Origin: Calditrichales bacterium MX18-03
GTDB taxonomy: Bacteria > Bacillota > Clostridia > Lutisporales > Lutisporaceae
DNA length: 64,000 nt
NCBI GenBank assembly: GCA_021083345.1
Contig: JAJGRE010000001.1
Location: forward strand, 868,001 to 932,000
Direction of reading: 5' to 3'
Shown here: positions 22,283-41,597 of the stretch, in pieces
Numbering within the stretch: the first letter of the stretch is position 1
Layout of the letters: each line of letters opens with the position of its first letter
Made by a program: the position numbers and the translations under genes
Notes under the pieces: model-generated
Told to the model about the DNA's origin: nothing
The model's database searches: none
Seen by the model: the letters and a program-made list of their open reading frames with translations, nothing else

Positions 22283-23945
22283 AAAGTATACCATCGGCGT
22301 TGACTACGGCACACAATCCGGCAGAACCGTGCTGGTTGAGGTTGACAGCGGCAGGGAAGTCGCCACAGCTGTCAAGGCTTATCCTCACGGTGTTATGGAT
22401 GAATATTTGCCGGACGGCAGGACAAAACTGGCCCATGACTGGGCGCTGCAGCATCCCCAGGATTATCTGGACGTATTGCGCGAGACTGTTCCCGCTGTTC
22501 TGGAAGAAGCCGGCATCACAGCTGAAGATATCATTGGCGTTGGAATCGACTTTACGGCTTGCACCATGCTGCCCACCGACAAAGCCGGTACTCCCCTCTG
22601 CTTCATGCAGGAACATGCCGGCAACCCGCATGCTTATGTAAAGCTTTGGAAGCACCATGCCGCGCAGGATGAAGCCAACAAATTGAACCGGATTGCTGCA
22701 GAACGGGGTGAGGACTTCCTGAAACGGTACGGCGGAAAAATCTCCTCCGAGTGGCTTATCCCAAAGATCTGGCAGATCCTGGACGAGGCTCCGGAGATTT
22801 ATGAGAAAGCAGACCGTATTATGGAAGCAGCTGACTGGGTGATTCTGCAGCTTACAGGAAAAGAAATGCGGAATAGCTGTACCGCAGGATATAAAGCGAT
22901 ATGGCATAAACAGCAAGGCTACCCTTCCAAAGATTTCTTCAAAGCCTTGGATCCCAGACTGGAAAACCTTGTAGAAGAAAAACTGAGCACAGAAATTCAC
23001 CCCATCGGAGCCAAAGCAGGAGAAATCACTAAGGAAGCTGCTGCATTGACAGGCCTTAAGGCAGGTACTGCCGTAGCAGTGGCCAATGTGGATGCCCATG
23101 TTGCCGTTCCTGCCGTGGGCATCACCGACGAAGGAAAGCTCCTGATGATTATGGGCACCTCCACCTGCCACATTCTGCTGGGCACCCAGGAAAAGCTGGT
23201 ACCGGGCATGTGCGGTGTGGTGGAAGACGGCGTTATCCCGGGTTATCTGGGTTACGAGGCCGGCCAGTCCTGTGTGGGAGACCATTTTGAATGGTTCGTT
23301 GATAACTGTGTTCCTGCGCACTATATAAAAGAGGCTGAAGAACAAGGCGTCGATATCCATCGGCTGCTTACTGAAAAAGCCGGCCGGCTGGCCATCGGCG
23401 AAAGCGGGCTCATCGCTTTGGATTGGTGGAACGGAAACCGCTCAGTACTGGTGGATGTAGACTTGACCGGCTTGCTGCTGGGCTGTACGTTGCTGACCAA
23501 GCCCGAGGAAATATACAGGGCTTTGATAGAGGCGACGGCATACGGAACCAGAATGATCATTGAAACCTTCCGGGAAAACGGTGTTCCCATAAACGATCTG
23601 TATGCTGCCGGCGGTATTGCTGAAAAGAACAAGCTGATGATGCAGATATATGCAGATGTAACCGGCATGGAGATCCGGATCTCTGCTTCACCGCAGGCAC
23701 CTGCACTGGGTTCGGCCATGTTCGGAGCCCTTGCGGCAGGCAAAGATAAAGGCGGATATGACGACATCGTGGAGGCTGCAAAGCATATGGCCAAGGTCAG
23801 AGAGGACTACTACAAACCGGTACCCGAAAATGTAGAGGCCTATAATAAGCTGTATGCTGAATATAAAACCCTGCATGACTACTTCGGCCGCGGTGTCAAT
23901 GACGTCATGAAGCGCCTTAAGAAGATCAAGGCGGAGAGTAAATAA
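22275..23945 (+). CDS. araB: Ribulokinase
   Basis: A 556-residue FGGY-family kinase: [15 protein letters not shown] at the N-terminus, [46 protein letters not shown] and [10 protein letters not shown]. These are diagnostic of AraB, which phosphorylates L-ribulose at O5. The ATG overlaps the end of araR, with GGGGG-type ribosome sequence inside araR. Length is normal for the family. Confidence 0.95.
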
Positions 23946-24019: not shown

Positions 24020-24712
24020 ATGTTGAAGGAGCTTAAGGAGAAGGTGCTGGAAGCAAACCTTGAATTGCCGAGAAAAGGGCTGGTCACCTATACCTGGGGA
24101 AATGTCAGCGGGATAGACCGTGAAAACAAGCTGGTCGTGATCAAGCCCAGCGGGATACCCTACGAGGCACTCCGTCTGGAGCATCTTGTGGTGTTGGACC
24201 TGGATGGCGGCATCATTGAAGGAAAGCTGAACCCCTCCTCCGATACACCTACACACCTCATGCTTTACAAAAGCTTTGCAAACATCGGCGGTATCGTTCA
24301 CACCCATTCACGATGGGCAACCATCTGGGCACAGGCAGGCAAGGGCATTCCTGCGTACGGTACCACTCATGCAGATTATTTTTATGGGAAGATCCCCTGT
24401 ACCAGAAAGTTAACGGCTGATGAAATACAAGGAGATTATGAAAAAGAAACCGGCAAGGTTATCGCAGAGACCTTTGAAGCTCATAATCCCGTTTTCATAC
24501 CCGGCATTATCGTCAATAACCACGGACCATTTTCCTGGGGTAAAGACCCCAATGAGGCAGTACACAATGCGGTGGTGCTGGAGGAAGTTGCCATGATGGC
24601 CTATCATACCTGCCAGCTTGCCACCGGAATCGGCCCCATTGACCAGGCGCTGCTTGACAAGCATTTTCTGAGAAAACACGGCGCCAACGCCTATTACGGA
24701 CAAAAACCATAG
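24020..24712 (+). CDS. araD: L-ribulose-5-phosphate 4-epimerase
   Basis: A 230-residue class II aldolase/adducin family protein: [37 protein letters not shown] with two zinc-ligand His, [10 protein letters not shown], and the later N-N-H-G-P third zinc ligand. It converts L-ribulose-5-phosphate to D-xylulose-5-phosphate, completing entry into the pentose phosphate pathway. GAGGAGG precedes the ATG; it lies 74 bases after araB. Confidence 0.95.
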
Positions 24713-24735
24713 AGTTAATATTGGAGGAATGGATC

Positions 24736-26226
24736 ATGTTGAAAGTAAAACCCTTTGAATTCTGGTTTGTTACCGGAAGCCAGCACCTTTACGGACCCGA
24801 AACCCTGAGACAGGTTGCAGAGGATTCCATGGAAATTGCAGCCGGGCTGGATCAAGCTGCCGCTGCACCTTATAAGATCGTTTTCAAGCCGGTGCTGACA
24901 ACGCCCGAAGCCATCCGCCAGCTGTGCATCGAAGCAAACTCCGATGACCTCTGTGCCGGCATCATCACGTGGATGCATACCTTCTCCCCGTCAAAAATGT
25001 GGATAGCCGGGCTCTCCCAGCTCAATAAACCCATGCTGCACCTGCATACGCAGTTTAACCGCGACATTCCCTGGGACAGTATCGATATGGATTTCATGAA
25101 CCTGAACCAGTCCGCCCACGGCGACCGTGAGCACGGCTTCATCGGCGCCAGGATGCGGCTTGCCCGCAAAGTGGTGGTCGGTTACTGGCAGGACCCTGAA
25201 GTGCTGAGCCGCATCGGTGCGTGGATGCGCGCCGCTGCAGCGGTTATGGAAGGTCGAAGCCTCAAGGTTGCAAGGTTTGGAGATAACATGCGGGAAGTGG
25301 CCGTTACCGAGGGTGATAAGGTGGAAGCCCAAATCAAATTTGGCTGGTCGGTAAACGGATACGGCATTGGAGATCTTGTAAAGCGCATAGACCAGGTTAC
25401 TGAAGCTGAGGTTGATAAGCTTATGGAAGAGTACCACCGGCTTTATGAAATGGCTCCCGAGGCTTGCGTGCCCGGAGCGGCCAGAGATGCGGTACGCGAG
25501 CAGGCCCGTATCGAACTGGGTATGAAGGCGTTCCTGGAAGAAGGCGGCTTCAGCGCCTTTACCACAACCTTCGAGGACCTGCATGGTATGAAACAGCTCC
25601 CCGGACTTGCGGTACAGCGGCTTATGGAAGCCGGCTACGGCTTCGGCGGGGAAGGCGACTGGAAGACAGCCGCACTGGTCCGGACCATGAAGATCATGGC
25701 ATCAGGCGAAGGCACCTCTTTCATGGAGGATTATACCTACCATCTGGAGCCCGGCAATGAAATGATACTGGGTGCCCATATGCTGGAGGTATGCCCGACA
25801 CTGGCAGCCGGCAAACCCAGGATCGAGGTCCATCCGCTGGGCATCGGCGGCAAAGCCGATCCTGCCCGCATCGTATTCAACGGTGGAAAAGGCGCCGCCA
25901 TCTGCGCTTCGGTTATCGATATGGGCGAACGCTTCCGCTTGCTTGTGAATGACGTGGACACCGTGGAAGTGGAAAAAGAAATGCCCAAACTTCCCGTAGC
26001 AAGGCTGCTCTGGAAGCCGCAGCCCTCCCTGAAGGTTTCTGCTGAAGCCTGGATACTGGCCGGCGGCGCACACCATACCAGCTTCTCCTATAAGCTGACC
26101 TCGGAGCATATGACGGACTGGGCAGAGATGGTTGGTATCGAATGCCTGTTGATCAACAAAGACATGAATCTGCACGCTTTCCGCAACGAAATCAGGTGGA
26201 ATGACTTGGTTTGGAAGCTGAGATAA
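24736..26226 (+). CDS. araA: L-arabinose isomerase
   Basis: A 496-residue protein, the exact usual AraA length. It contains [28 protein letters not shown], the catalytic [12 protein letters not shown]-type segment and [10 protein letters not shown] with the metal-ligand His residues. It converts L-arabinose to L-ribulose. GGAGGAATGG before the ATG at 24736 decides the start; an in-frame TTG at 24721 is inside that site. Last gene of the araRBDA unit. Confidence 0.95.
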
Positions 26227-27036: not shown

Positions 27037-28200
27037 CTATGCATTTTTAGACTTGGTATAAACGTCAAAGGCAACTGCAAGGAGCAGCACAAGGCCTTTT
27101 ATCGCATACTGCCAGTCAATGCCCAGGCCTACGATGGACATGCCGTTGTTCATGACGCCCATGACCAGGCCTCCGATGATTGCCCCCATGACAGTACCTA
27201 TACCGCCGCTGGCTGAAGCGCCGCCTATATAACATGCCGCGATGGCATCCAGTTCAAAGTTCACACCGGCTTTCGGCGTGGCCGCATTCAATCTGGCAGC
27301 AAAGACAAGACCAGAAAGTGCAGCCAGAACACCCATATTTACATAGACCCAGAACATGACCTTTTGTGTCTTTACGCCGGATAGCTTTGCAGCTTTTTCG
27401 TTTCCTCCCAGTGCATAGATATGCCGCCCTGCCACTGTTTTGCTGGTAACGAAAGTATAAATGACGATCAGTATAAACAGCAGGATTAAAACATTGGGAA
27501 CACCTTTATAAGCAGCAAGGAAATACATAAACGCATTGATTGCGGCAGTTACGGCAACCATTTTAGCAATAAGGAAAGGCATGGGAATAACATCAAAGTT
27601 GTACTTTATTTGGGTATTCCGGTTTCTTAATTCGAAAAGTACATATACGACGGAAAACAGGATCCCTACTAGGACAGTGGTCGTATGAAAGCCCGAACCA
27701 CCCAGGAAATTGGGAATAAAGCCGGAGCTGATCTTTTGAAAAGCAACCGGGAAAGGCGATAAGGACATTCCCTTCAGGGTCACCATTGTCAGGCCTCTGA
27801 ATATCAACATACCTGCTAAAGTCACTATAAAAGCGGGAATTTTGACATATGCGATCCAGAACCCTTGCCAGGCACCGATAAGGCCGCCTATAAGCAATGA
27901 GATGATCACAGCCGGAATAAACGGCATCTTATGTGTCACCATCAGGACTGCCGACACAGATCCTACAAATGCGGCTACAGAACCAACGGACAAATCGACA
28001 TTCCCGGTGATAATAACCAGCAGCATGCCGACTGCCAGAACCAGAATGTAGCTGTTCTGGAGTATGACATTGGTAATGTTCAACGGCTGAAGCAAGACAC
28101 CGTTCGTTACGATTTGAAAAAACATCATAATGGTTATTAATGCAATAACCATGCCGTACTGTCTTATATTACTTCTGAACATTGATTTCAACGTTTCCAT
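27037..28200 (-). CDS. mmsB: Multiple-monosaccharide ABC transporter permease (MmsB/GguB type)
   Basis: A 387-residue membrane protein of the RbsC/AraH/XylH family, with about ten helices and the long form typical of MmsB/GguB. Segments: VGMLLVIITGNVDLSVGSV near residue 57 and IAACYIGGASASGGIGTVMG near the end, the conserved family loops. The ATG shares one base with the stop of the ATPase gene, with GGAGG inside that gene. It forms the membrane channel for the sugar importer. Confidence 0.9.
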   Translation of the reverse strand: METLKSMFRSNIRQYGMVIALITIMMFFQIVTNGVLLQPLNITNVILQNSYILVLAVGMLLVIITGNVDLSVGSVAAFVGSVSAVLMVTHKMPFIPAVIISLLIGGLIGAWQGFWIAYVKIPAFIVTLAGMLIFRGLTMVTLKGMSLSPFPVAFQKISSGFIPNFLGGSGFHTTTVLVGILFSVVYVLFELRNRNTQIKYNFDVIPMPFLIAKMVAVTAAINAFMYFLAAYKGVPNVLILLFILIVIYTFVTSKTVAGRHIYALGGNEKAAKLSGVKTQKVMFWVYVNMGVLAALSGLVFAARLNAATPKAGVNFELDAIAACYIGGASASGGIGTVMGAIIGGLVMGVMNNGMSIVGLGIDWQYAIKGLVLLLAVAFDVYTKSKNA

Positions 28201-29738
28201 TATTGTACCTCCTGCTGTTGGTTAATTACATATTTCATGATCTTTTCCTGAGACGCTTCCTGACCGCTCAACTCACCTGTAATCTTGCCTTCACTCATAA
28301 CATAGATCCGGTCGCACATCCCCAGGATTTCAGGAAGCTCTGAAGAAATAAGCAGGATGCCTTTCCCCTCCGCAGCCAATTGATGAATGATGGTATAAAT
28401 CTCATACTTTGCGCCTACATCTATTCCCCTGGTCGGTTCATCCAAGATCAGAATATCCGGTTCCGAGTATATCCACTTGCTCAAGACCACCTTTTGCTGA
28501 TTTCCTCCGCTCAAATTCACCGTCTTTTGAAGAATGCTGGATGCTTTAATGTTCAGCTTCTTACGGTAATCCTCAGCATCCAGGATTTCCTGGTTTTCAT
28601 TCACGACGAAGCGTTGTGTAATCTTGTCCAAATTCGCAATGGTGGTATTCCGCTTAACATCATCTATTAGAATCAAACCATAATTTTTTCGGTCTTCTGT
28701 GACATAAGCCAAACCGCCGTCTATTGCCTTATTGATGCTGCCGAACTGAACTTCTTTTCCATCTTTATACAACCGGCCGCTGATCCTCGTTCCATAGGAT
28801 TTCCCGAAAATGCTCATGGCAAGCTCTGTCCGGCCCGCGCCCATCAAACCTGCTATCCCTACGATCTCTCCCCGGCGTATGTTCAAATTGACATTATCGA
28901 TGACTTTTCGGTTCTCATGTTGGGGGTGATAGACTGTCCAGTCCCTGACCTCAAAAATCAGATCTCCGATTTTGGGTTCCCGCTTCGGAAAGCGGTGTAC
29001 CAGGTCTCTTCCTACCATCCCTTTAATAATCCGGTCTTCGGTAATCTGATCCTTTTCCATATCAAGGGTCTCGATGGTCTTACCATCCCGCAGGATGGTT
29101 ATGGTATCCGCCACCTTGGAAACTTCGTTCAATTTATGTGAAATCAATATGGATGATATGCCTTCTTTCTTTAGTTCCAGCAATAGCTTCAAAAGGTTTT
29201 CACTATCGTTCTCATTCAATGCTGCCGTAGGTTCATCCAGTATGAGCAGCTTTACCTTCTTTGATAATGCTTTGGCGATTTCAACCAGCTGCTGCTTACC
29301 GACACCGATGTTGGTAATCAGCGTATTGGGTGATTCAACCAATCCGACCTTTTTCAGCAATTCCCTTGTGTGGGTTATGGTGTCGTTCCAATTAATGATG
29401 CCATTTTTTGCTTGCTCATTACCCAAGAATATGTTCTCTGCGATTGAAAGGTAAGGGATCAGCGCCAATTCCTGATGGATGATGACTATGCCCAAGCTTT
29501 CGCTTTGCTTGATATCCTTGAATGAACACACACTGCCTTGGAAGAGGATGTTTCCGGTATATGTTCCATGGGGGTATACACCGCTTAGAACCTTCATAAG
29601 TGTTGATTTCCCCGCACCGTTTTCACCGACCAGCGCATGGATTTCGCCTTCCTTCACCTGGAGGTTGACGTTGTCCAGCGCTTTCACACCGGGAAATGTC
29701 TTGGTAATATTCTGCATCTCCAAAATAAATGCTGACAT
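28200..29738 (-). CDS. mmsA: Multiple-monosaccharide ABC transporter ATPase (MmsA/GguA type)
   Basis: A 512-residue tandem-ABC protein. Domain one has Walker A GENGAGKS at residues 38-45 and [11 protein letters not shown]; domain two has [14 protein letters not shown] and [14 protein letters not shown]. It powers the monosaccharide importer. The ATG at 29738 with AGGAG upstream is chosen over an earlier start at 29756. It follows the binding-protein gene after a hairpin. Confidence 0.92.
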
Positions 29739-29782
29739 CTGATCACTTCTCCTCACGATGTTACATTGTTATATAAACAATA

Positions 29783-29820
29783 AACAATCTAGCGGTGGCG
29801 GGTGCCACCACTAAATTGTT
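29783..29820 (-). terminator. Hairpin between binding-protein and ATPase genes
   Basis: A 17-bp stem (29783-29799 with 29804-29820) with two G-U pairs in the minus-strand RNA and a four-base loop, followed by TATTGTTT. Probably partial termination or 3'-end protection that favours the binding protein. Confidence 0.7.
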
Positions 29821-29840
29821 CATGTCACAGTAATCCGATA

Positions 29841-30953
29841 CTATTTTGTAACCTGATCCTTTGTGTAATACCCGCTGCCTACCAGTATGGATTCCCAGTT
29901 GCTTACATCAACCGAAACAGGCTCAAGCAAGTATGAAGGAACAACCTTGACACCATTGTCATATGTCTTTGTATCATTAACTTCCGGCTGCTTGCCGTTC
30001 AGAACTGCATCTGCCATGCCGACAGCCTTCTTTGCCAATTCTCTCGTATCCTTAAATACGGTCTGTGTCTGTTCGCCTGCAATGATGGATTTTACTGAGG
30101 GCAGTTCTGCATCCTGTCCTGTAACTACAGGCATCGGTTGTGCAGGTGTTCCGTATCCGACACCCTTCAAAGAAGAGAGTATTCCGATACTGATTCCGTC
30201 GTAGGGTGACAATACGGCATGTATTTTCTCTGTTCCGTAGTGGGCTGAGAGAAGATTATCCATTCTGGCCTGTGCAGTTGCACCGTCCCATCTCAATGTA
30301 GCAACCTTGTCCATCCCCATCTGGCCGCTCTTAACAACCAATTTGCCTGAATCGATATACTGTTGAAGTACTGACATAGCGCCATCATAGAAGAAGTACG
30401 CGTTATTGTCATCAGGTGATCCACCAAATAATTCGATATTGAAGGGGCCTTTTCCTTCTTTCAGACCAAGAGCTTTTTCGATATATGCAGCTTGCTGCAC
30501 GCCTACTTTGAAATTATCGAAGGTCGCATAATAGTCAACAAATTCACTCTTCTTGATCAAACGGTCATAAGCGATTACAGGGATCTTTGCATCATGTGCC
30601 TTCTGTAGCACATCCGTCAGGGATTCTCCGTCGATGGATGCGATAACCAGAACACTGACTCCCTTAGTGATCATGTTTTCAAGCTGGGACAATTGGTTTT
30701 CTACGACATCCTCAGCGTACTGCAGGTCACATTGATAACCTAACTTTTCAAATTCCTTGACCATGTTGTTTCCGTCATCGATCCACCTCTGGGATGATTT
30801 TGTAGGCATCGCAATCCCTACAATTTTCTTTCCTCCCTGGGCTTCTGCAGCAGCAGCGTTTGATGTCTCTGCTCCTGTTTCAGTTTTGGCTCCACATGCC
30901 GTCAAACCAAATGCAAGGACAACCACCAGCAGCAATGATAATACCTTTTTCAT
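29841..30953 (-). CDS. Multiple-monosaccharide binding lipoprotein (ChvE-like)
   Basis: A 370-residue lipoprotein: signal [20 protein letters not shown] with lipobox LTAC, then a periplasmic-binding type 1 fold ([56 protein letters not shown]). These are ChvE/MmsE-type features; homologues bind arabinose, galactose, glucose or xylose. AAGGGGAA precedes the ATG at 30953, which decides against 30998. With araBDA next door, L-arabinose is a likely ligand. Confidence 0.9.
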
Positions 30954-30985
30954 TTGACTTTCCCCTTTCCATTCGATAAAAATTT

Positions 30986-31014
30986 GATATACCCACACGC
31001 AATTAGCACGTTAA
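30986..31014 (-). promoter_or_regulatory. Promoter of the monosaccharide transporter operon
   Basis: On the minus strand TTAACG (31014-31009), 17-base spacer, TATATC (30991-30986). The -35 lies in TTAACGTGCTAA, an imperfect palindrome that could be a LacI-type operator. Confidence 0.5.
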
Positions 31015-32255: not shown

Positions 32256-33263
32256 CTAGGTGTGGGATATATCTGATTTAAGAACTTGCGACTTTTTCCT
32301 GATCCTTCTGGCCGTGAGCAAGCTCTGCATTACAATAAACAGGCAGAGCAGAATTGCAACGGCAATCTTGGTCCACCAAGAGCTCAGAGTCCCCTGGAAC
32401 ATCACCAGGGTCTGTATGGTTCCCTGAATCAGTACCCCGAAGAGCGTCCCGAACACCGAGCCGACCCCTCCGGTTAAAAGGGTGCCGCCGATAACGGCCG
32501 AAGCGATGGATTCCATTTCCATGCCCAGGCCATGGAGGGTAAAGCCGGATCGCATATAAAAGCTGAACACGATTCCCGACAAGGTGGAGCATATGCCGCC
32601 CAGCATATAAATGCCGATTTTGGTCCGACCCACAGACAGGCCCATCAGGACTGCCGATTGCTCATTACCACCGATGGCATAGGCTGTACGGCCGAATTTG
32701 GTAAAGTGTGCAATGTACGCTGCGATCAGCAGTGCTATGACCGCTATGACGACGCTGATGGATATGAATGCGCCGCCAAATACCGGTATTCTGTAGTTGG
32801 CTATCAACTCATAGGTCTTATCCGTTATATCTATGGTATCGATACTGATGACGGCTGTCATCCCTCTGGCAAAGAACATGCCTGCCAATGTCACGATAAA
32901 GGGCTGCATCTTGAAGAAATGGATCAACGCACCCTGTATCAGCCCGAAGGCTGCACCCATCAGAAGCATCAGAGCCATCACAAGGAAGGGGTTTAAATGT
33001 TTCATTTCCAGCAGGTAGGCTGAAAGCATGCAGGTCAGTGAAAGCACTGCACCTACGGAAATATCGATGCCTCCTGCTATGAGGATAAAGGTTGTGCCGA
33101 TGGCCATGATAATAAGGTAAGCATTATCGATAAAAAGGTTGAGAAAATTCTGCAGCGAAAAGAAGCCGGTAAACTTTAAAGAACCCAGGGCAAATAATAA
33201 AAAGAACAGGAAGATGGTTACAATCAGTGATAAATACTTAGAGCTTAACTGCAACTTGTTCAT
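32256..33263 (-). CDS. yjfF: Sugar ABC transporter permease, YjfF type
   Basis: A 335-residue RbsC-family permease with about nine helices and the signature IAGGIDISVGAVLSLTCM and VIGGTLLTGGVGSVFGTL. In Escherichia coli YjfF pairs with YtfT in the galactofuranose importer. The ATG at 33263 has GGGAGG upstream and overlaps ytfT by 26 bases; an earlier start at 33317 is unlikely. Last gene of the ytfQRT-yjfF-like operon. Confidence 0.85.
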   Translation of the reverse strand: MNKLQLSSKYLSLIVTIFLFFLLFALGSLKFTGFFSLQNFLNLFIDNAYLIIMAIGTTFILIAGGIDISVGAVLSLTCMLSAYLLEMKHLNPFLVMALMLLMGAAFGLIQGALIHFFKMQPFIVTLAGMFFARGMTAVISIDTIDITDKTYELIANYRIPVFGGAFISISVVIAVIALLIAAYIAHFTKFGRTAYAIGGNEQSAVLMGLSVGRTKIGIYMLGGICSTLSGIVFSFYMRSGFTLHGLGMEMESIASAVIGGTLLTGGVGSVFGTLFGVLIQGTIQTLVMFQGTLSSWWTKIAVAILLCLFIVMQSLLTARRIRKKSQVLKSDISHT

Positions 33264-34299
33264 GCTGCGACCTCCCATCCTTTTTGAATAAATCCGCCAG
33301 AACGCGACGGAAGTCATCGGACTGAATCAGGCAGATCGAGATAACAACAACAGCCTTTACAACCGGCAGAACCTGCGGCGATACACCCAGTGCATACATG
33401 GTAGTTGTAATGCTCTGTATGATCAGTGCCCCTATAATACTTCCCATGATTGAGAATCTTCCGCCGTTCATAGAATTTCCGCCTAATGCCACTGCCAGAA
33501 TGGCATCCATTTCGTAGCCCAGACCTGCGTTATTTCCGTCTGCAGCCTTCACCATGGAGGATATCACCAAGCCTGCTACGCCGGCGCATAGTCCACAGAA
33601 ACCGTAAACCATGTAAATCAGCTTTTTAACGTTGATGCCCGAATAGCGTGTGGCAGTCCGGTTGATTCCGGCAGATTGTATGAATAAACCCAGGGAGGTT
33701 TTCTTGACCGCTACCAGTGCCATAGTCAATACAATTGCCACGATGAATATGGATGTGGGCAGTATCAAGCCCGGTGTAAAGCTTCCCAAGTAAGCGTACG
33801 GCTTATAATACACCGTAATGATCTGGCCCTGTGTCACCAGCTGTGCAATCCCCCTGCCTGCAACCATCAGGATCAGCGTCGCAACGACAGGCTGTATTTC
33901 CAGCTTCGCCACAAGAAAACCGTTCCAAAGCCCCAGGACCACGGATACAGCCAATGCAGCTGCAATGGCAATCCCATAAGAATGGTGAGGTATTCCGCTT
34001 AATTCCCCTCCAACCAGTGCTGCCATGACTGCTCCTGAAATAGCACACATGGAACCTACCGAAATGTCGATGCCGCCTGTAGCCACGACCAGGGTCATGC
34101 CTATTGCCAGCAGCATGTAACAGCCTGCATTCTTCACGATGTCGATGATCCGGCCGTAAAGATGGCCATCCTTCATCTCAATGCTGAAAAATCCTTCTAC
34201 AAAGATCAGGTTAAAGAAAAGCACCAGCACCAGCCCTACAAGAGGCCAGAACAATCTTGAGCCTGACCAGCGCTTTAAACGATCCTTAAGCCCCTGCAT
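33238..34299 (-). CDS. ytfT: Sugar ABC transporter permease, YtfT type
   Basis: A 353-residue RbsC-family permease with VVATGGIDISVGSMCAISGA and ILAVALGGNSMNGGRFSI, the YtfT variants of the family loops. AGGAGGTG precedes the ATG at 34299, which lies 14 bases inside the ATPase gene. Together with YjfF it forms a heterodimeric channel. Confidence 0.88.
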   Translation of the reverse strand: MQGLKDRLKRWSGSRLFWPLVGLVLVLFFNLIFVEGFFSIEMKDGHLYGRIIDIVKNAGCYMLLAIGMTLVVATGGIDISVGSMCAISGAVMAALVGGELSGIPHHSYGIAIAAALAVSVVLGLWNGFLVAKLEIQPVVATLILMVAGRGIAQLVTQGQIITVYYKPYAYLGSFTPGLILPTSIFIVAIVLTMALVAVKKTSLGLFIQSAGINRTATRYSGINVKKLIYMVYGFCGLCAGVAGLVISSMVKAADGNNAGLGYEMDAILAVALGGNSMNGGRFSIMGSIIGALIIQSITTTMYALGVSPQVLPVVKAVVVISICLIQSDDFRRVLADLFKKDGRSQHEQVAVKL

Positions 34300-35815
34300 T
34301 ATTTTCACCTCCTGCAATGGTGTGCATGACAACCTCTTCATTCAGTTCTCCGCCGGTCAGCTCCGCGATTTTGTTCCGATCACGGATAACGGCCAGCCTG
34401 TCGCAGCACCTCAGCAATTCATCCAGCTCGGAGGAGATGAACATGACTGCCATGCCTTCGTCTGCCAGCCTGACAATCAGCTTCTGAATCTCAGCCTTGG
34501 TGCCTACATCGATGCCCCGGGTGGGCTCATCCAGGATTAAGAGGTCCGGCTGCGTCACCAGCCACCTGGCCAATATGACCTTCTGCTGGTTGCCGCCGCT
34601 CAGGTTCCTGATCAGCTGCTCTTTTCCAGAGGTCTTGATGTTCAGGAGCCTGATATAGTCATCTGCAATCTTCTCCTGTTCCTTACGCTTGATATATTTC
34701 CGGACCCCGCGTTTTGCCTGCAGAGCCAGGATGATATTCTCCCTGACGGAAAGCTCGGATATGATTCCTTCTGTTTTTCTGTTTTCCGGACAGAACGCCA
34801 TGGAATGCTTCATGGCATCACCGGCTGATGCGATCACTGTCTTATTGCCTTGAACATGCATTTCTCCGCAATCAGCCTTGTCTATCCCAAAGATGACCCT
34901 GGCTGTCTCAGTCCGCCCGGAACCCAGCAGCCCAACCAGCCCCAAGACTTCTCCCTTATGAATATCCAAATCGAAGGGATTGATGCTGCCCAGGTGACCG
35001 ACGCCCTTTGCGCTGACATAAGGCGTTTCACGGCGTGCATCCTCTGTCGTTTTTTTGTCTTTATTGAAGCTGGACAGGTCATCCAGCACCTTCCCGATCA
35101 TTTTTGAGACCAGCTGCACTTTTGGAAGCAGCGCCGTCTCATATTCCCCTACCAGTTCGCCATTCCTCAGCACCGTGATCCTGTCGCTGATTTCATATAC
35201 TTGATCCAGGAAATGGGTCACAAATATGATTCCCAGGCCTTCCGATTGAAGCTTTCTCATCACCTCAAACAACTTTTTGACCTCATGGGCATCCAAGCTG
35301 GAGGTAGGCTCATCCAGTATCAGCACTTTGGAGGATATGTCCAGCGCCCTGGCTATAGCCACCATCTGCTGGACGGCAACAGAGTACGTATCCAGCGTCT
35401 GTGTCACGTCGATCTCTATGTCAAGTCTCTCAAGGACTTTTTTTGCTCGCTTGTTGATTTCCTTCCAATCGATTTTTCCGGCACGCACCGGTTCACGTCC
35501 AATAAAAATGTTCTCAGCTACCGTAAGATTGGCACACAGGTTGACCTCCTGGTAAACTGTACTGATGCCCAGTTCCTGAGCATGCTGCGGGGACTTGGCC
35601 AGTATGCTGCGGCTATCCAGCAGGATTTCTCCGGCATCCAGCTTATCAACACCGGTCAAAACCTTGATCAGCGTCGATTTTCCAGCTCCGTTTTCTCCCA
35701 TGAGTGCATGTATCTCTCCGGCTCTCAGTTTGAAATCCACATTGGAAAGCGCCCTGACGCCGGGAAAGGTCTTGCAGATTCCGGTCATTGTCAAGATTGG
35801 GCTGGTTTCAGACAT
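34286..35815 (-). CDS. ytfR: Sugar ABC transporter ATPase, YtfR type
   Basis: A 509-residue tandem-ABC ATPase: GENGAGKST near residue 40, VLILDEPTSSLDAHE, then [14 protein letters not shown] and [14 protein letters not shown] in the second half. Closest in style to YtfR of the galactofuranose importer. GGAGGGAGGAG precedes the ATG at 35815. It is separated from the binding protein by a branched terminator-like structure. Confidence 0.9.
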   Translation of the reverse strand: MSETSPILTMTGICKTFPGVRALSNVDFKLRAGEIHALMGENGAGKSTLIKVLTGVDKLDAGEILLDSRSILAKSPQHAQELGISTVYQEVNLCANLTVAENIFIGREPVRAGKIDWKEINKRAKKVLERLDIEIDVTQTLDTYSVAVQQMVAIARALDISSKVLILDEPTSSLDAHEVKKLFEVMRKLQSEGLGIIFVTHFLDQVYEISDRITVLRNGELVGEYETALLPKVQLVSKMIGKVLDDLSSFNKDKKTTEDARRETPYVSAKGVGHLGSINPFDLDIHKGEVLGLVGLLGSGRTETARVIFGIDKADCGEMHVQGNKTVIASAGDAMKHSMAFCPENRKTEGIISELSVRENIILALQAKRGVRKYIKRKEQEKIADDYIRLLNIKTSGKEQLIRNLSGGNQQKVILARWLVTQPDLLILDEPTRGIDVGTKAEIQKLIVRLADEGMAVMFISSELDELLRCCDRLAVIRDRNKIAELTGGELNEEVVMHTIAGGENNAGA

Positions 35816-35848
35816 AACGCACTCCTCCCTCCTAATCACCTGATATAT

Positions 35849-35929: not shown

Positions 35930-36961
35930 CTAGTACTGTCTGTTCGGCAGTTCCTTTGCTGCAGTCTCTGCAGGGAAAACGCCTTCGTTGGTCACGATCC
36001 GCTTCTCAACCGGCTTGCCTGCAAGAACATCCTTTGCAATTTGCATCAGCTGAGCACCCAGCAGCGGGCTGCACTCTACGGAGCAGTTGAGCTTGCCGGC
36101 AATCATGGCTTCAAAAGCACCCTTAACAGCGTCTATGGAAATGATGATGATATCCTTGCCCGGTACTAAACCGGCTTCCTCTATGGCCTGGATTGCGCCA
36201 AGCGCCATGTCATCGTTGTGGGCATACAGGACATCGATATTATCCTTGTCTGACTTCAGCCAGGATTCCATAACCTGTTTACCTTCCGCACGGGTGAAGT
36301 TTCCGGTCTGAGATTTGACGATCTTCCAACCCGGGTATTTTTTCATAACCTCTTCAAAGCCTGTTTTCCGGTCGATGGCCGGAGCCGAACCCACGGTTCC
36401 CTGAAGCTCAAATATGTTGATATTCTCTTTCAAGCCGAGTCTGGCAGCATTTTCTCCCAGCCAGTTTGCAGCTCTTCTGCCTTCCTCAACGAAGTCTGAG
36501 CCTATGAAAGTCACATATAAGGATTCATCTTTGGTATCAACGGCTCTGTCTGTCAGAATAACAGGTATTCCGGCAGCCTTTGCTTCCTGCAATACGGTAT
36601 CCCAACCTGTTTCAACTTTTGGTGAGAAAGCAATGACATCCACTTTCTGAGCGATAAATGACCGGATTGCCTTTATTTGAACTTCCTGCTTCTGCTGCCC
36701 ATCTACAAACTTCAATTCAATACCAGCTTTTGCAGCTTCTTCCTGAATACTCTTTGTGTTGGCTGTTCTCCACTCGCTCTCAGCGCCGACCTGAGCAAAT
36801 CCCAAAACAATCTTCTTCTCGGCAGGGGCTGTGTTCTCAGCAGCAGTGCTTTGAGTCGGCTCAGTCTGGGTAGCCGCAGGCTGAGGTTTAGCGCAGGCTG
36901 CCAGTGAAAACACCAGTAAGAGGGATACGAAAAGGGCAATGGCTCTTGACATTTTTTTCAT
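35930..36961 (-). CDS. ytfQ: Galactofuranose-type binding lipoprotein, YtfQ family
   Basis: A 343-residue lipoprotein: signal ending in lipobox SLAAC, a low-complexity Thr/Ala linker, then the YtfQ pattern LGFAQVGAESEWRTANTKSI, DGQQKQEVQIKAIRSFI, VIAFSPKVETGWDTVL, ILTDRAVDTKDESLYVTFIG. YtfQ binds galactofuranose in Escherichia coli; related proteins bind other furanoses. GAGGAGG precedes the ATG. It is highly similar to the sensor lipoprotein at 40419-41399. Confidence 0.9.
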   Translation of the reverse strand: MKKMSRAIALFVSLLLVFSLAACAKPQPAATQTEPTQSTAAENTAPAEKKIVLGFAQVGAESEWRTANTKSIQEEAAKAGIELKFVDGQQKQEVQIKAIRSFIAQKVDVIAFSPKVETGWDTVLQEAKAAGIPVILTDRAVDTKDESLYVTFIGSDFVEEGRRAANWLGENAARLGLKENINIFELQGTVGSAPAIDRKTGFEEVMKKYPGWKIVKSQTGNFTRAEGKQVMESWLKSDKDNIDVLYAHNDDMALGAIQAIEEAGLVPGKDIIIISIDAVKGAFEAMIAGKLNCSVECSPLLGAQLMQIAKDVLAGKPVEKRIVTNEGVFPAETAAKELPNRQY

Positions 36962-37282
36962 GGATCTTCCTCCTCAAATTTTCTTTGAAAATAAAGCGTG
37001 CTGCATGTTGTGCCGTGACCATTGGGTATGACCGTTCCTCCCGGGAAGAGGTCCTCTGCTTTATATACTTTGATTATAGAGGGAGGCGGATAAAATGACG
37101 ATGGATTATATTATGGGAAAGGTTTAGATTTTTTCCGAATATTTTCATTCCTTTCCTTGAAGAATTAATCAAAAGTTAAATAATTTACTAAATAAAGTGA
37201 ATTATTTACGAAAAATACAAAAACAGTGGTTTTCCCACTGCTTTTGTTTAAAATATTTCTGATCTGTGCCGAACAGCAAATC
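36962..37282. other. Regulatory gap upstream of the ytfQ-like gene
   Basis: AT-rich, no gene. On the minus strand TATAAT near 37074-37079 lacks a good -35, as expected for an activated promoter, and the repeated GGTCA motif near 37015-37035 could be an AraC-type site. The YesN-type regulator encoded next door is the likely activator. The terminator at 37216-37247 closes the regulator transcript. Confidence 0.4.
37216..37247 (-). terminator. Terminator after the YesN-type regulator
   Basis: CAGTGG (37224-37229) pairs with CCACTG (37235-37240), extended by A/T pairs, with TTTTTGTATTTTT following on the minus strand. Confidence 0.7.
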
Positions 37283-38884
37283 TCACTGCCCTTCACTTCT
37301 GTATTCCTTGGGGGTCAGGCCGGTAACCCTTTTGAATAGATAGCTGAAGTAATGGGGGTCGTTATATCCTACCTTATAGGCTATTTCCGAAGATTTCTGA
37401 TTGGTCGTCTTCAGGAATTCCATGGCCTTCCTGATTCTTGTGGCGGTCAGGTACTCGATGAAGGTATCCCCGGTCTCCTGACTGAAAATGGTGCTGAAAT
37501 GGCTGGGGCTGATGCTGACATAGGCCGCCAGGGAATTCAGGGAAGTTTCGGGATTGGCGTAATTGTGTTCAATAAAGTCCTTTGCTTTACTAATCAAACT
37601 GCCGTACCGGTTCTCAACCTTGCTGTCTCTGAACTCAAACACCTTCATCAGGATTTTTTCGGCATATGCATTAAAGCTGCTGACGGAGTCCATGTTCTCC
37701 AGGATTTTTTCCAGATGGGTAATCTCCGGCACCAGCACCTCGATATCGCCTCCCAGCTCCTGTACAAAGCGGGCGGAAGTCAATGCGATGTCCATAAAGG
37801 CGTAGTACGTATAAATCAGGGATTTCAGGTTGGGCTCGCTGAGGCACCGTATGTAACAGGACAGGTATTCCTGAATATTGGATTTGACACCGCATTTCAA
37901 ATAGTTCACAATGCTCATTTTATCCAGTTTCAGAAGCTCGCTCTTGCCGGTATCTTCCATCCGGATGTCCTTGATCCCGATTATTTTATTCCTTCCGAAG
38001 ACATATTTGTAATTCTTGGCTTTATCCGCGTCGGAGAAAGACTCGCTGATGCCCTGTATCCGCTCTCTTGCGCTTCCAATCCCGATGGTCAGAAAATTGC
38101 CGGTATTCCGCTCAACCTCATACTTGATGGCCTGCGCGAAGCTGTATGCGTTTTCTTCCAGGTCTGCCGCTGCATCCCCTTTGAAAATCAGCACCGTTTC
38201 TTCCATACCCCTCTTAAACTTGATGATATCCTGATTTCCTTCCACGATACCCGAGATGACGGACTCGATTCTATAATAACCGGAGGACAGCCTGGGGTTT
38301 CCGGCTGCTTCTTTCAGCTCTGCTTCAACAATTACTGCCAGATAATATTTGGAAATCAGATTGACATGATACTGCGAGCACTTCTCTATGGCCTCCACCG
38401 GCTGTATCATGCCCAGGGAAAGCTCGTTCAGAAATTGGTCCCTCATCAGCACCGCATTATTATCCAACTGGCACTTCAGCTTCTCGTAATTTTCCCTTTC
38501 CTGCTTTTCCTTCTCGATCTGGCCGGCTATTTTTTTCAGGGATTTGATCAGTTCACCGGAATTTATTGGCTTTAGGATATATTCAGTTACACCGATACTG
38601 ATGGCTTCCTTGGCAAAGTTGAATTCATCATGGCCGCTGAGTATCATGATTTTGATCCAGGGCATGTTCCTTTTGATGATGCGGCTGAGCTGAAGGCCAT
38701 CCATAAAAGGCATCTTGATATCGGTTATCAATATATCGGGCTTGATTTCCTGAATCAACGGAAGAGCCATTTCTCCGTCCGGCGCTTCTCCTGCCAGGGA
38801 AAAATCGGTCAGATCCCAATTGACGTTGTCCCTTATGCCTTCCCTAACGACGATCTCATCATCCACAAGAAAAACCTTATACAA
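37283..38884 (-). CDS. YesN-type AraC-family response regulator
   Basis: A 533-residue protein: receiver domain with FLVDDE and phospho-acceptor Asp55 in ILITDIKMPFMDG, a long helical middle region, and a C-terminal double AraC HTH (LAAYVSISPSHFSTIFSQET, then VGYNDPHYFSYLFKRVTG). A TTG at 38884 with GGAGGTGATA upstream is the likely start; the GTG at 38893 lies inside that site. It follows the kinase by five bases. It probably activates the ytfQ-like transporter operon just downstream. Confidence 0.9.
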   Translation of the reverse strand: MYKVFLVDDEIVVREGIRDNVNWDLTDFSLAGEAPDGEMALPLIQEIKPDILITDIKMPFMDGLQLSRIIKRNMPWIKIMILSGHDEFNFAKEAISIGVTEYILKPINSGELIKSLKKIAGQIEKEKQERENYEKLKCQLDNNAVLMRDQFLNELSLGMIQPVEAIEKCSQYHVNLISKYYLAVIVEAELKEAAGNPRLSSGYYRIESVISGIVEGNQDIIKFKRGMEETVLIFKGDAAADLEENAYSFAQAIKYEVERNTGNFLTIGIGSARERIQGISESFSDADKAKNYKYVFGRNKIIGIKDIRMEDTGKSELLKLDKMSIVNYLKCGVKSNIQEYLSCYIRCLSEPNLKSLIYTYYAFMDIALTSARFVQELGGDIEVLVPEITHLEKILENMDSVSSFNAYAEKILMKVFEFRDSKVENRYGSLISKAKDFIEHNYANPETSLNSLAAYVSISPSHFSTIFSQETGDTFIEYLTATRIRKAMEFLKTTNQKSSEIAYKVGYNDPHYFSYLFKRVTGLTPKEYRSEGQ

Positions 38885-38889
38885 TTGTA

Positions 38890-40377
38890 TCACCTCCCGC
38901 AGGGGAAAGATAACGAGATACGGGTGCCTTTATTATATTCACTCTTCAGCATCAAACCATAATCCTTTCCATAATACAGCTTGATCCGCTTATGTACATT
39001 GGATAGGCCGAAGCCGCTTTCTTTCATGGCAGGCAGGATGTCGTCATTCTCCAGCTCCGACTGGAGCTCCGCCAGCTTCTCTTCCGTCATTCCGATTCCA
39101 TTGTCGATGATCTCAAAAAGCACCCTGTCATCTTCGGTCTTGGAGCCTTTAATGATGATCGTTCCTCCGAAGCGCCTGTTCTTGATGCCGTGATAAAGCG
39201 CGTTTTCTACCAGGGGCTGCAGCGTCAGCTTCAGAATCTTATAGCCCAGTATGGCTTCATCCACCTCAATGCTGAAATCAAGGATATCCCTGTACCTGAT
39301 TTTTTGGATGATCAGGTAGCTGCGGATATGCTCCACCTCATCCCGTATGTCAATCCAGTCACGCCCCTTGCTGAGTGTGATTCTGAAGAAGTTGGACAGG
39401 GCACTGACGATTTCGATGACCTGCTCGCTTTTGTTGGCTTCTGCCATCCATACAATGGTATCCAGCGTGTTGTATAAAAAGTGAGGGTTGATCTGGGCTT
39501 GCAGCGCCTTCAATTCGGACTTTTTCAGGTTCTCCTGCTCCTGAATGCTTTTCTGGATCAGTTCCTCCAGTTCTCCGGCCATCATGTTGAGGCTGATGCC
39601 CAGACTGGCAATCTCATCGTGATTCTTGTGCTCCACACGGACGTTCAGATTGCCTTCCGCGATGGAAGCTGCCATTTGCCTCAGTTCTTTGATGGGATTG
39701 GAAATGCTGCCGGATATGATCCAGGCTGCACTGACCGAAAAGACCAGTACAATGAACAATACGAATACATTCGTTGCCATCCATCGGCTGACATTTTGCT
39801 TGATCTGCTGCTTGACTGCCTCAGCGCTTTTCACTTCATAAAGGATGAATTCCTGGATATCTTCTTCCACCAACGCTGAAACACTGCGAATTTCTTCCAG
39901 CACTTTTTCGTTTTCGGCTACCTTCTTTTTCTGTTTGATCTGCTCTCCCATCACATCAACATAATGCTTCAGCGTCTTCATGGTCCGCAGCGTTACATCC
40001 AGGCGGATCCGGCTATCCCTGGAGCTGACGTTGTTCATGATCTTGCGGATGCTTTCATTGGTCTCGTTGATGATCTCATATTGCCTGCCATCCTCAAAAT
40101 TGATTTTGCCGGCCACGATATCCCACATTTCTGCATCGATGCTGCTCTTAACGACTCCGTTGATGCTGTTTGCGTCCGTGATGTTGGTAACGATGGTATC
40201 ATACTGAGCGTTATACTTCAATGAGCTGAACATCAGCACGATATTCAGGCAGCTCATCATCAGAATGACTGTGGCGAAGGATATGACGATTTTGCTCCTG
40301 ATCGTCATATTCCGGTTCGGTATCATTTTTTTCAGGTTTTGATATAGCCGGGAAGCAGCTTGCTGAACATTTTTCAT
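38890..40377 (-). CDS. YesM-type sensor histidine kinase
   Basis: About 495 residues: membrane helix near residue 28, an external helical region of about 140 residues, a second helix (FVLFIVLVFSVSAAWIISG), HAMP (ISNPIKELRQMAASIAEGN), the His-kinase motif LQAQINPHFLYNTLDTI, and an HATPase_c with GFGLSNVHKRI. It phosphorylates the YesN-type regulator. The upstream gene encodes a lipoprotein sugar binder, probably its ligand-sensing partner. The start is uncertain between 40377 and 40392; neither ribosome site is ideal. Confidence 0.88.
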   Translation of the reverse strand: MKNVQQAASRLYQNLKKMIPNRNMTIRSKIVISFATVILMMSCLNIVLMFSSLKYNAQYDTIVTNITDANSINGVVKSSIDAEMWDIVAGKINFEDGRQYEIINETNESIRKIMNNVSSRDSRIRLDVTLRTMKTLKHYVDVMGEQIKQKKKVAENEKVLEEIRSVSALVEEDIQEFILYEVKSAEAVKQQIKQNVSRWMATNVFVLFIVLVFSVSAAWIISGSISNPIKELRQMAASIAEGNLNVRVEHKNHDEIASLGISLNMMAGELEELIQKSIQEQENLKKSELKALQAQINPHFLYNTLDTIVWMAEANKSEQVIEIVSALSNFFRITLSKGRDWIDIRDEVEHIRSYLIIQKIRYRDILDFSIEVDEAILGYKILKLTLQPLVENALYHGIKNRRFGGTIIIKGSKTEDDRVLFEIIDNGIGMTEEKLAELQSELENDDILPAMKESGFGLSNVHKRIKLYYGKDYGLMLKSEYNKGTRISLSFPCGR

Positions 40378-40418
40378 CCTATACAATCCCATCCTTCACT
40401 ATCATGATGACTTGCATG

Positions 40419-41399
40419 TCAATACTTTCGGTTCTCTAACTCCTGCGCCGCTACTTCCTCAGGGAATACGGACCCTGGAATGATGATCCGCTTGGGAATA
40501 GCAATGCCTGCTACTACATCCCGCACCGCCTGCATCAGCATCGGTCCAAGCAAAGGATTGCACTCCACAGTACAATTCAGTTTTCCTTCGATCATTTTCT
40601 CGAAAGCACCCCGGTTAGCATCGATGGAAACGATAATGATATCCTTGCCAGGCTTCAATCCGTATTCCTCTATCGCTTTGATGGCACCAATTGCCATATC
40701 GTCATTATGGGCGTATAGCACATCAATCTTGTCGCCCTCCAGTTTGAGCAGCTCTTCCATGGCTTCATACCCTTTGGATTTCATAAAATCCGCACATACC
40801 GACTGTATGATCTGTATATTGGGGCGTTCCTTGATAATCTCCTCAAAACCTTCTTTTCGCAGTATGGTAGGTGAGGAACCCATATTCCCCTGCAATTCCA
40901 CAACGTTGATATCCCTTTTGGTCTCCTGCAGCTTTTCCACCAGCCATTTTCCGGCTTTTTTTCCCTCTTCCCTGAAATCGGAGCACATAAGCGCCACATA
41001 CAGGGAATCGTCCTCGGTCTTGATGGCTCGGTCGGTTATGATGACTGGAATACCTGCATCCTTGGCTTCCTTCAGCACCGTATCCCAGCCGGATTCCACC
41101 AACGGTGAAAAAGCGATGACATCTACCTGATTGGCAATGAAGGAGCGGATGGCCTTAATTTGGTTCTCCTGCTTCTGCTGTCCATCTGAAAACATCAGCT
41201 GGATGCCGGCATCCCTGGCAGCCGTCTTGATGGATTCGGAGTTGGCCGTACGCCAGTCACTTTCAGCACCTAGCTGGGAAAACCCCAGTACAATGCTTTC
41301 CGGATAGGGTTCATTGCCGGAAACAGGCTCTTTTTTTTCACAGGTTGTCAGAAAGAGAAGGGTGGTGGATAGGATCACAAACAATAGAAGCCTTTTCAT
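40419..41399 (-). CDS. YtfQ-like sugar-binding lipoprotein, probable sensor component
   Basis: A 326-residue lipoprotein with lipobox LTTC and the YtfQ fold: LGFSQLGAESDWRTANSESI, DGQQKQENQIKAIRSFI, VIAFSPLVESGWDTVLKEA. It is a close paralogue of the transport protein at 35930-36961 but lies at the head of the kinase-regulator operon with no permease. This matches three-component sugar sensors such as XylFII-LytS-YesN described in Clostridium, where the lipoprotein hands the sugar signal to the kinase. GGGGAGA precedes the ATG. Confidence 0.85.
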   Translation of the reverse strand: MKRLLLFVILSTTLLFLTTCEKKEPVSGNEPYPESIVLGFSQLGAESDWRTANSESIKTAARDAGIQLMFSDGQQKQENQIKAIRSFIANQVDVIAFSPLVESGWDTVLKEAKDAGIPVIITDRAIKTEDDSLYVALMCSDFREEGKKAGKWLVEKLQETKRDINVVELQGNMGSSPTILRKEGFEEIIKERPNIQIIQSVCADFMKSKGYEAMEELLKLEGDKIDVLYAHNDDMAIGAIKAIEEYGLKPGKDIIIVSIDANRGAFEKMIEGKLNCTVECNPLLGPMLMQAVRDVVAGIAIPKRIIIPGSVFPEEVAAQELENRKY

Positions 41400-41485: not shown

Positions 41486-41597
41486 TCGATCCGCCGGCCT
41501 GATGTTCGAGCAAGAAGTCTCAGTATAGTTTGAGTATAGAGGTTGAACCCGGGAAAGTAAATTGAATATTATACTGAAAAGGTTTGATTTTTTCGAG

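Follow-up and report, generated by a model that had tools for sequence, protein, structure and literature searches.

Why a bacterium should keep two closely similar sugar-binding proteins in adjoining operons, one beside transporter genes and one beside a sensor kinase, is the question raised by the 64,000-nucleotide stretch of DNA analysed here (the window). The two genes lie where the original prediction had placed two lipoproteins, as open reading frames on the minus strand at 40419..41399 (S, sensor-side) and 35930..36961 (T, transporter-side). Both are identified as GafA/YtfQ-type sugar-binding lipoproteins by gene order and by similarity to GafA/YtfQ, and both have a lipobox-like motif near the N-terminus (pattern match only). 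Downstream of S by 26 nt starts a gene for a YesM/LytS-type histidine kinase (38890..40392, minus strand; Pfam domains HAMP, His_kinase and HATPase_c), overlapped by 4 nt by that for a YesN-type response regulator with receiver and AraC-type HTH domains (37283..38893, minus strand; Pfam). The 321-bp gap between YesN and T holds a terminator-like hairpin of 13 pairs with a T tail (37217..37247, minus strand; consensus match); terminator-like sites in the region number 10, which is not above shuffled sequences (mean 8.8, sd 3.2). Behind T, also on the minus strand, follow a YtfR-like sugar ABC ATPase (34286..35839; Pfam; YtfR is the best model, at 718 bits against a cut-off of 850), a YtfT-like permease (33238..34341; Pfam; 320 bits, below the cut-off of 535) and a YjfF permease (32256..33317; profile score 417 bits (416.9), above the cut-off of 363). 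Rfam at gathering scores gave no match between 28000 and 43000. Gene order (S-kinase-YesN, then T-ATPase-permease-permease) and Pfam thus agree with the earlier assignment of T to the head of a transporter operon and of S to the head of a YesM/YesN operon, and the predicted gene set for a three-component sensor built on the YtfQ family is present, with docking of S on the kinase as its conjectural part.

The whole locus is best, and probably correctly, explained as an S-kinase-YesN sensor controlling the T importer, the two binding proteins (SBPs) having separated long ago within the GafA family. S, the kinase and YesN would form a three-component sugar sensor, and T, the ATPase and both permeases a matching GafABCD-type importer. 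Lipid-anchored S would catch an extracellular furanose, most likely L-arabinofuranose, and dock onto the kinase at its predicted helix-bundle input domain; the kinase would phosphorylate YesN, which would activate the transporter promoter and, as feedback, the sensor operon itself, acting at a 72-bp element that the two operons share.

Of this reading, the sequences show the genes, their family, the equal pocket residues, the age of the split, the shared upstream element and the araBDA neighbourhood. BLASTP aligns S and T with 191/340 identical residues (56%; E 4e-136), and their mature parts are 62% identical; within their genome only these two have GafA-level similarity, the next paralogue being at 33%. 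The best five PDB matches of both are 6hyh, 6hb0, 6hbd, 5ocp and 2vk2 (E 2.4e-77 or better), and the sixth is far weaker (3e-33 for T, P0001; 1.2e-31 for S, P0002). Against the YtfQ equivalog model NF041827 of NCBIfam, T scores 353.9 and S 331.6 bits, both below the cut-off of 510. On these sequence comparisons S and T are confirmed as GafA/YtfQ-family paralogues. S scores 263-314 bits against GafA structures in the PDB, its best 60 matches there (weakest ~34 bits) include no XylFII entry, and the xylF model gives it 68 bits versus 332 for the YtfQ model. Judged from these PDB and profile scores rather than by direct comparison with XylFII, S would not belong to the XylFII subfamily.

The ligand sites, whose comparison had been proposed with the original prediction, are the same in S and T: 12/12 pocket positions are identical in both and in the M. 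smegmatis GafA structure. Some of these positions we take to be pocket residues by homology. Those named in the available text of PMC10191376 include Trp, Phe, Arg38, Asp105 and Glu28, and the Glu28-Asp105 spacing of 77 agrees with the numbering given there. Residue 40, the selectivity position, is Ala in both proteins, whereas Shewanella GafA, an arabinose-only type, has a bulky Phe there according to the same text; with Ala, galactofuranose is possible and neither protein can be called selective for arabinose against galactose. L-arabinofuranose is nevertheless the most likely ligand, inferred from the presence in the window of araB (L-ribulokinase, 22275..23945), araD (L-ribulose-5-phosphate 4-epimerase, 24020..24712) and araA (L-arabinose isomerase, 24721..26226), all on the plus strand with profile scores above cut-off. 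These genes lie on the strand opposite to the sensor and transporter operons, 10-15 kb away, with their own regulator gene adjacent; it encodes a GntR-LacI type protein (21179..22282, plus strand; partial profile matches, none above cut-off), presumably AraR-like. A second sugar importer, a ChvE-GguA-GguB multiple monosaccharide transporter (27037..30998, minus strand; ChvE and GguB above cut-offs, GguA by position only), stands beside the furanose-type one.

Could the two proteins be specific for different furanoses, T perhaps taking up L-arabinofuranose and S sensing galactofuranose or an arabino-oligosaccharide? Equal GafA pockets can differ in selectivity via second-shell changes, as the accessible part of PMC10191376 indicates, and S does differ from T near the pocket: for example, Leu replaces Asp before one pocket Arg, and Lys replaces Arg after one pocket Phe. 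The agreement at all pocket positions and at residue 40 argues against such a division, which we regard as unlikely.

How S would reach the kinase is suggested by the kinase's N-terminal part, in which two membrane helices (read from sequence) flank an input domain at about residues 58-203. The AlphaFold model of this domain is a helix bundle, a fold that resembles many proteins. A Foldseek search with the model placed the LytSN chain of XylFII-LytSN (5xsj_L) at rank 2 (TM 0.84 by target length, 2.4 A over 121 columns; VIA Z 13.6), in a list with a best E of 0.011 and none <0.001, where chemoreceptors and a designed bundle tie with LytSN. The 25 matches listed by phmmer for the kinase against the PDB include no LytSN. 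From the model, the kinase input domain is predicted to be a helix bundle, possibly LytS-like. The domain also occurs on other outputs: directly after a GafA SBP on a chemoreceptor (L098; 46% identity over 258 aa), 35 bp after a GafA SBP on another kinase type (L116) and after a ChvE-type importer on a chemoreceptor (L121). A sugar SBP gene or importer thus precedes it in 3/6 other carriers examined; the other three (L120, on a short contig, L122 and L123) have no SBP gene beside it.

A regulatory tie between the operons is suggested by a 72-bp element common to their upstream regions. The copy upstream of T (37064..37135, minus strand), a candidate YesN site and promoter, comprises AAACCTTT...TCCAT half-sites and the -10-like CTATAATCAAAGTATA; the one upstream of S (41524..41594, minus strand) is a putative autoregulatory site. 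Pairwise alignment revealed the element (local score 55 versus a mean of 21.7 and a maximum of 39 over 1000 shuffle pairs), and a repeat search inside each upstream region did not. Allowing <=3 mismatches, its 29-nt core matches the 4.69-Mb genome at exactly 2 places, with 0 for the reversed control and no copy at araBDA. From its presence in both regions, and of its core nowhere else in the genome, we infer autoregulation together with transporter control: YesN would govern its own operon and the transporter through the shared element, as judged from sequence. With the window copies alone as query, a relative of the element stands upstream of the transporter genes in L102 (score 43, z 7.7), T of L099 gives z 3.5 and T of L001 z 1.2. 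A weak element lies upstream of S in L100 (z 2.5), and S of L098 is absent from the best 30 matches listed. S has no promoter region to itself in two close relatives, L001 and L099, where its gene runs into that of the last permease. Scored with a weight matrix built on four sites (T and S of the window plus a pair from L102), L101 comes out high; its sequence, however, is almost the same as that of one training row. Matches in the remaining rows are weak (L077, z 4.1; L099, z 3.7, away from the part matched by eye).

Comparative evidence came from loci picked for their resemblance to S or to the kinase of the window. The gene neighbourhood was extracted for 36/41, 18/21, 15/17 and 10/10 other genomes in four search sets; six genomes of the 15/17 set also belong to the 18/21 set, as equal coordinates suggest, and genomes left out of these two sets match only the kinase output half. 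L093, L094 and the cut L096_2 were dropped before tree building. Hand-assigned labels include those of L088 and L112 (S), of the second SBP of L114 (T) and of L101 and L102 (B, single). Among the 35 S-labelled rows, 24 lie within 50 bp of a kinase gene or overlap it, and some overlaps may be start-codon artefacts since ORF starts were set at the first ATG/GTG/TTG; nine lie at 99-219 bp, and L088 and L112 are labelled by position, without an adjacent kinase. Chloroflexota have related loci, and so does Pseudobacteroides, where AraR-, AraB- and AraD-like genes accompany them. A short tether from lipobox Cys to domain was dropped as a sensor mark, S having the shorter one in only 14/27 loci (Wilcoxon p 0.036 for the 27 loci with both values, in a direction inconsistent between lineages).

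These loci bear on the possibility that S is a second transport SBP for the same permease, the kinase sensing something else or being triggered by T. GafA SBPs are normally parts of transporters, which speaks for this role, as does the retention of every pocket residue by S. S lies between kinase and T in one gene run in 19 of 33 two-SBP loci, where position cannot separate a sensor from a second transport SBP, and for 13 tree rows the source stretch holds a kinase and a single GafA SBP, so that such a kinase may work without a dedicated SBP. Against it, the window and 11 further loci have S set apart from T and linked with genes for kinase and regulator (the remaining 2 being L088 and L112), window S falls in a clade with kinase-adjacent sensor SBPs of other genomes (support 96/90), and the input domain follows sugar SBP genes or importers in half of the carriers with other outputs. 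On balance a purely transporting S seems quite improbable.

A recent tandem duplication, which the original prediction had read from the long shared motifs and for which the 56% identity and the adjoining operons would also speak, is hardly credible. Fourfold-degenerate sites are saturated (16/61 equal, 25% expected), trees and AU tests reject a sister pairing of S with T (p 0.025 for the tree of 99 rows; AU p 0.0009 for that of 33 rows), and the motifs, though real, do not mark a recent copy since they are family-wide pocket motifs also present in 6hyh. By these sequence-based tests the pair goes back to an early divergence among GafA proteins. A single origin of all sensors was rejected (35 S rows as one clade, AU p 0.001), as was one group of window-type and Chloroflexota S; the kinases of window-type and Chloroflexota loci do group together. 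Long branches call for caution with these sensor-origin tests.

The arrangement of paired SBPs, one for an importer and one for a sensor kinase, is already known from XylFII-LytS-YesN and CuaDSR. XylFII-LytS-YesN of Clostridium beijerinckii senses xylose; next to it lies a sugar ABC importer that has an SBP to itself. The present locus likewise sets an SBP beside a LytS-type kinase and YesN, next to an importer with its own SBP, and its modelled input domain resembles LytSN (PDB 5xsj, 5xsd) among other helix bundles; unlike that system, its SBP is of GafA/YtfQ type, its sugar would differ and it is known from genes rather than as a complex. Geobacillus-type bacteria have the arabinose loci AraPST/AraEGH. 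A YesM-YesN pair and a second SBP near arabinose genes are shared with such loci, to judge from the available text of PMC13068155, which gives for Parageobacillus thermoglucosidasius a YesM-YesN pair with a ChvE-like SBP importer (AOT13_11420-11435) and, close to arabinose genes, another putative arabinose-binding protein; a two-SBP carbohydrate system of G. stearothermophilus is mentioned in the accessible part of PMC10384115. In CuaDSR/CuaABC of Ruminiclostridium cellulolyticum, as described in that part, cellobiose is the sugar, CuaD and not CuaA binds the kinase, and sensor SBP, kinase and YesN-type regulator lie adjacent to an importer with its own SBP, as here; the SBP family differs, the kinase ectodomain is larger and has beta sheets, and cuaDSR is reported constitutive, whereas here the upstream element of T also precedes S. 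This locus has its transporter family, pocket residues and araBAD linkage in common with GafABCD (Shewanella sp. ANA-3) and YtfQRT-YjfF (E. coli), for which the available description (PMC10191376) has no sensor SBP or kinase, unlike here. A literature search, with subscription journals largely outside it, gave no GafA-type kinase sensor among the matches listed.

The furanose-binding GafA family and the Chloroflexota would thereby join the known range of two-SBP three-component sensing, and an input domain common to kinases and chemoreceptors is named. A pair with equal pockets lets one ask what makes a transport protein a kinase trigger. Across the 33 two-SBP loci the furanose pocket is better kept in S than in T in 26, equally in 7 and worse in 0 (14, 7 and 0 in the 21 kinase-reached loci, window included), where picking loci by similarity to S favours pocket-keeping sensors. 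Judged by eye, the tree places the transporter pocket changes in some three lineages, hence few independent events; one large clostridial clade has 5/12 transporter pocket positions altered, including the stacking Trp and both candidate Phe. A pattern in which the sensor keeps and the transporter drifts is checkable across many genomes. Quite tentatively, and with low confidence, we suggest that in Clostridia and Chloroflexota the sensor guards the furanose pocket and that, where the pair differs, the transporter's is the one remodelled; cells may then sense freshly released arabinofuranose as a signal of plant-fibre breakdown and import another form or sugar.

Two adjoining operons lie on the minus strand of the window, one led by the sensor-side GafA/YtfQ-type sugar-binding protein (SBP) S (40419-41399) and the other by its transporter-side paralogue T (35930-36961), an arrangement that had been read correctly in the original prediction. 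After a 26-nt gap, S is followed by a histidine kinase (38890-40392) that overlaps a YesN-type regulator (37283-38893) by 4 nt. The 321-bp spacer between regulator and T contains a terminator-like hairpin, and a YtfR-like ATPase, a YtfT-like permease and a YjfF permease follow 3' of T. An AraR-like regulator, araB, araD and araA occur 10-15 kb away on the plus strand, with each enzyme above its NCBIfam cut-off, and a ChvE-GguAB importer is placed between this set and the S/T operons. C. beijerinckii, according to passages of Drousiotis et al. (PMC10191376), likewise has both furanose- and pyranose-type importers near arabinose genes. Elsewhere in the window (60537-61952), an isomerase-like protein matches sulfoquinovose isomerase weakly (122 bits, cut-off 700) and has as neighbours an FGGY kinase and a further sugar ABC importer.

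The best structure matches of both S and T are GafA/YtfQ, although neither is a YtfQ equivalog by NCBIfam, and no other protein of GafA level was found in their genome. Comparison of their ligand sites, as originally proposed, reveals identity at all 12 pocket positions, six of which we presume to be pocket residues by homology to other sugar SBPs. The others are Trp, Arg38, Asp105, Glu28 and two candidates for the stacking Phe, after passages of PMC10191376. Residue 40 is Ala in S and T, unlike in a Shewanella GafA-type protein that the same passages describe as taking arabinose only, so galactofuranose is still a possible ligand. The evidence is best read as a three-component sensor of GafA type whose ligand is most probably L-arabinofuranose. 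It is known in kind: its presumed mode of working resembles those of CuaDSR and, as originally proposed, XylFII-LytS-YesN. By sequence, S is not an XylFII-type SBP.

The S/T duplication is old, not recent as had been supposed. The long motifs common to S and T (56% identical) are real, but the prominent ones also occur in M. smegmatis GafA and are thus a family mark. Fourfold-degenerate sites at identical amino acids agree in 16/61 cases against 25% expected from composition, so no neutral similarity remains. A bootstrapped tree of 33 rows places S with four sensors from other genomes (96/90) and, once three further members are included, in a clade of eight (98/97) that excludes T, which has no firm partner in that tree; in a 99-row quick tree, T joins the single SBPs of loci L101 and L102 from other genomes (SH-aLRT 90). 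Forcing S and T together is rejected in both trees (p 0.0009 and 0.025, respectively).

Pairwise alignment of upstream regions reveals a shared minus-strand element 5' of T (37064-37135) and S (41524-41594), with a local score of 55 versus a mean of 21.7 and maximum of 39 for 1000 shuffle pairs. Because the genes themselves are saturated at synonymous positions, this likeness is either kept by selection or arose after them. The element's 29-nt core has exactly two genome sites at up to 3 mismatches (reversed control, 0), and a relative occurs 5' of the L102 transporter genes (z 7.7), with other relatives weaker. We infer a putative YesN site that would control T with feedback on S, whereas cuaDSR is constitutive according to passages of PMC10384115 and PMC3656788. 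The last permease gene and S overlap in both L001 and L099, so sensor and transporter would be on one message there.

Gene content was read in the window and 63 fetched stretches. In none of 33 two-SBP loci is T closer to the GafA pocket than S: S is the better match in 26, and the two are level in 7, the window pair among them. For the 21 kinase-reached loci, the counts of S better, equal and worse are 14, 7 and 0. A clostridial clade of 19 T rows has pocket Trp replaced by Tyr (15/19), two Phe by Ile or Val (16/19) and Trp (19/19), Gln by Asn (15/19) and Glu by Gln (15/19). Changes in T arose in about three lineages, which makes this a trend and not 26 independent cases; judged from sequence, sensors appear to keep the pocket while transporters drift, an unusual pattern. 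S lies apart from T in 12 of these loci and between kinase and T in 19; no kinase adjoins S in L088 and L112, and in L112 (5250-9653) about 3.4 kb separates the sensor-like SBP from the kinase versus 0.1-0.2 kb in close relatives. Thirteen stretches (L059, L070, L073-L078, L101-L104, L113) have one GafA SBP and a kinase, possibly a dual-use binding protein, with some contigs ending nearby (e.g., L101).

With an E cut-off of 1e-80, matches to the kinase, in some cases just to its output half, occur in 22/391 genomes of the window's class, 17/58 of the order of Pseudobacteroides and 10/150 of the class of Oscillochloris; genome sets of the window's class and Pseudobacteroides' class have members in common, as judged from equal coordinates, so we take this class to be Clostridia. 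At E up to 1e-60, the window's own genome is the sole carrier among 22 of its family, and S-like SBPs occur in 42/391 genomes of its class. One kinase match (L017; genome G130, contig C3:34106-35587) lies in a 1019-aa open frame with one internal TAG. L079 (7548-9458) and L080 (7417-9327) each encode a protein of 637 aa that follows a response regulator and a kinase of dCache type, with a GafABCD-like operon nearby; Pfam, run on the L079 copy, shows two Peripla_BP_4 stretches in it. A single clade of all S rows is rejected (AU p 0.001) in the SBP tree (99 rows, including 35 S, 41 T and 13 single SBPs) and the window's kinase clusters with Chloroflexota kinases, which suggests, provisionally given long branches, that there was probably more than one event of sensor SBP recruitment or replacement.

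Pfam identifies HAMP and YesM-type domains in the kinase, with 4HB_MCP under its cut-off. Its input domain, between two membrane helices, is modelled as a helix bundle (four rows, mean pLDDT 74, pTM 0.55, with confidence blocks of 87-95 across model residues 41-160); LytSN of XylFII-LytSN is its second-ranked Foldseek match, with which chemoreceptors tie. Searching with the input domain plus HAMP gives hits with E no higher than 1e-15 in 15/290 genomes. Among six carriers with other outputs, L120, L122 and L123 lack a neighbouring monosaccharide SBP or importer and three have one. In L116, a GafA SBP is followed by a kinase of a different type; L121 (1343-7342) encodes a ChvE-like SBP (82% to the window's ChvE), ATPase, permease and then a chemoreceptor with this input domain. 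In L098 (11943-14744), a GafA-type SBP directly precedes a chemoreceptor that resembles the window kinase's input domain and HAMP in its N-terminal part (46% over 258 aa); here a single input module would serve both gene control and chemotaxis.
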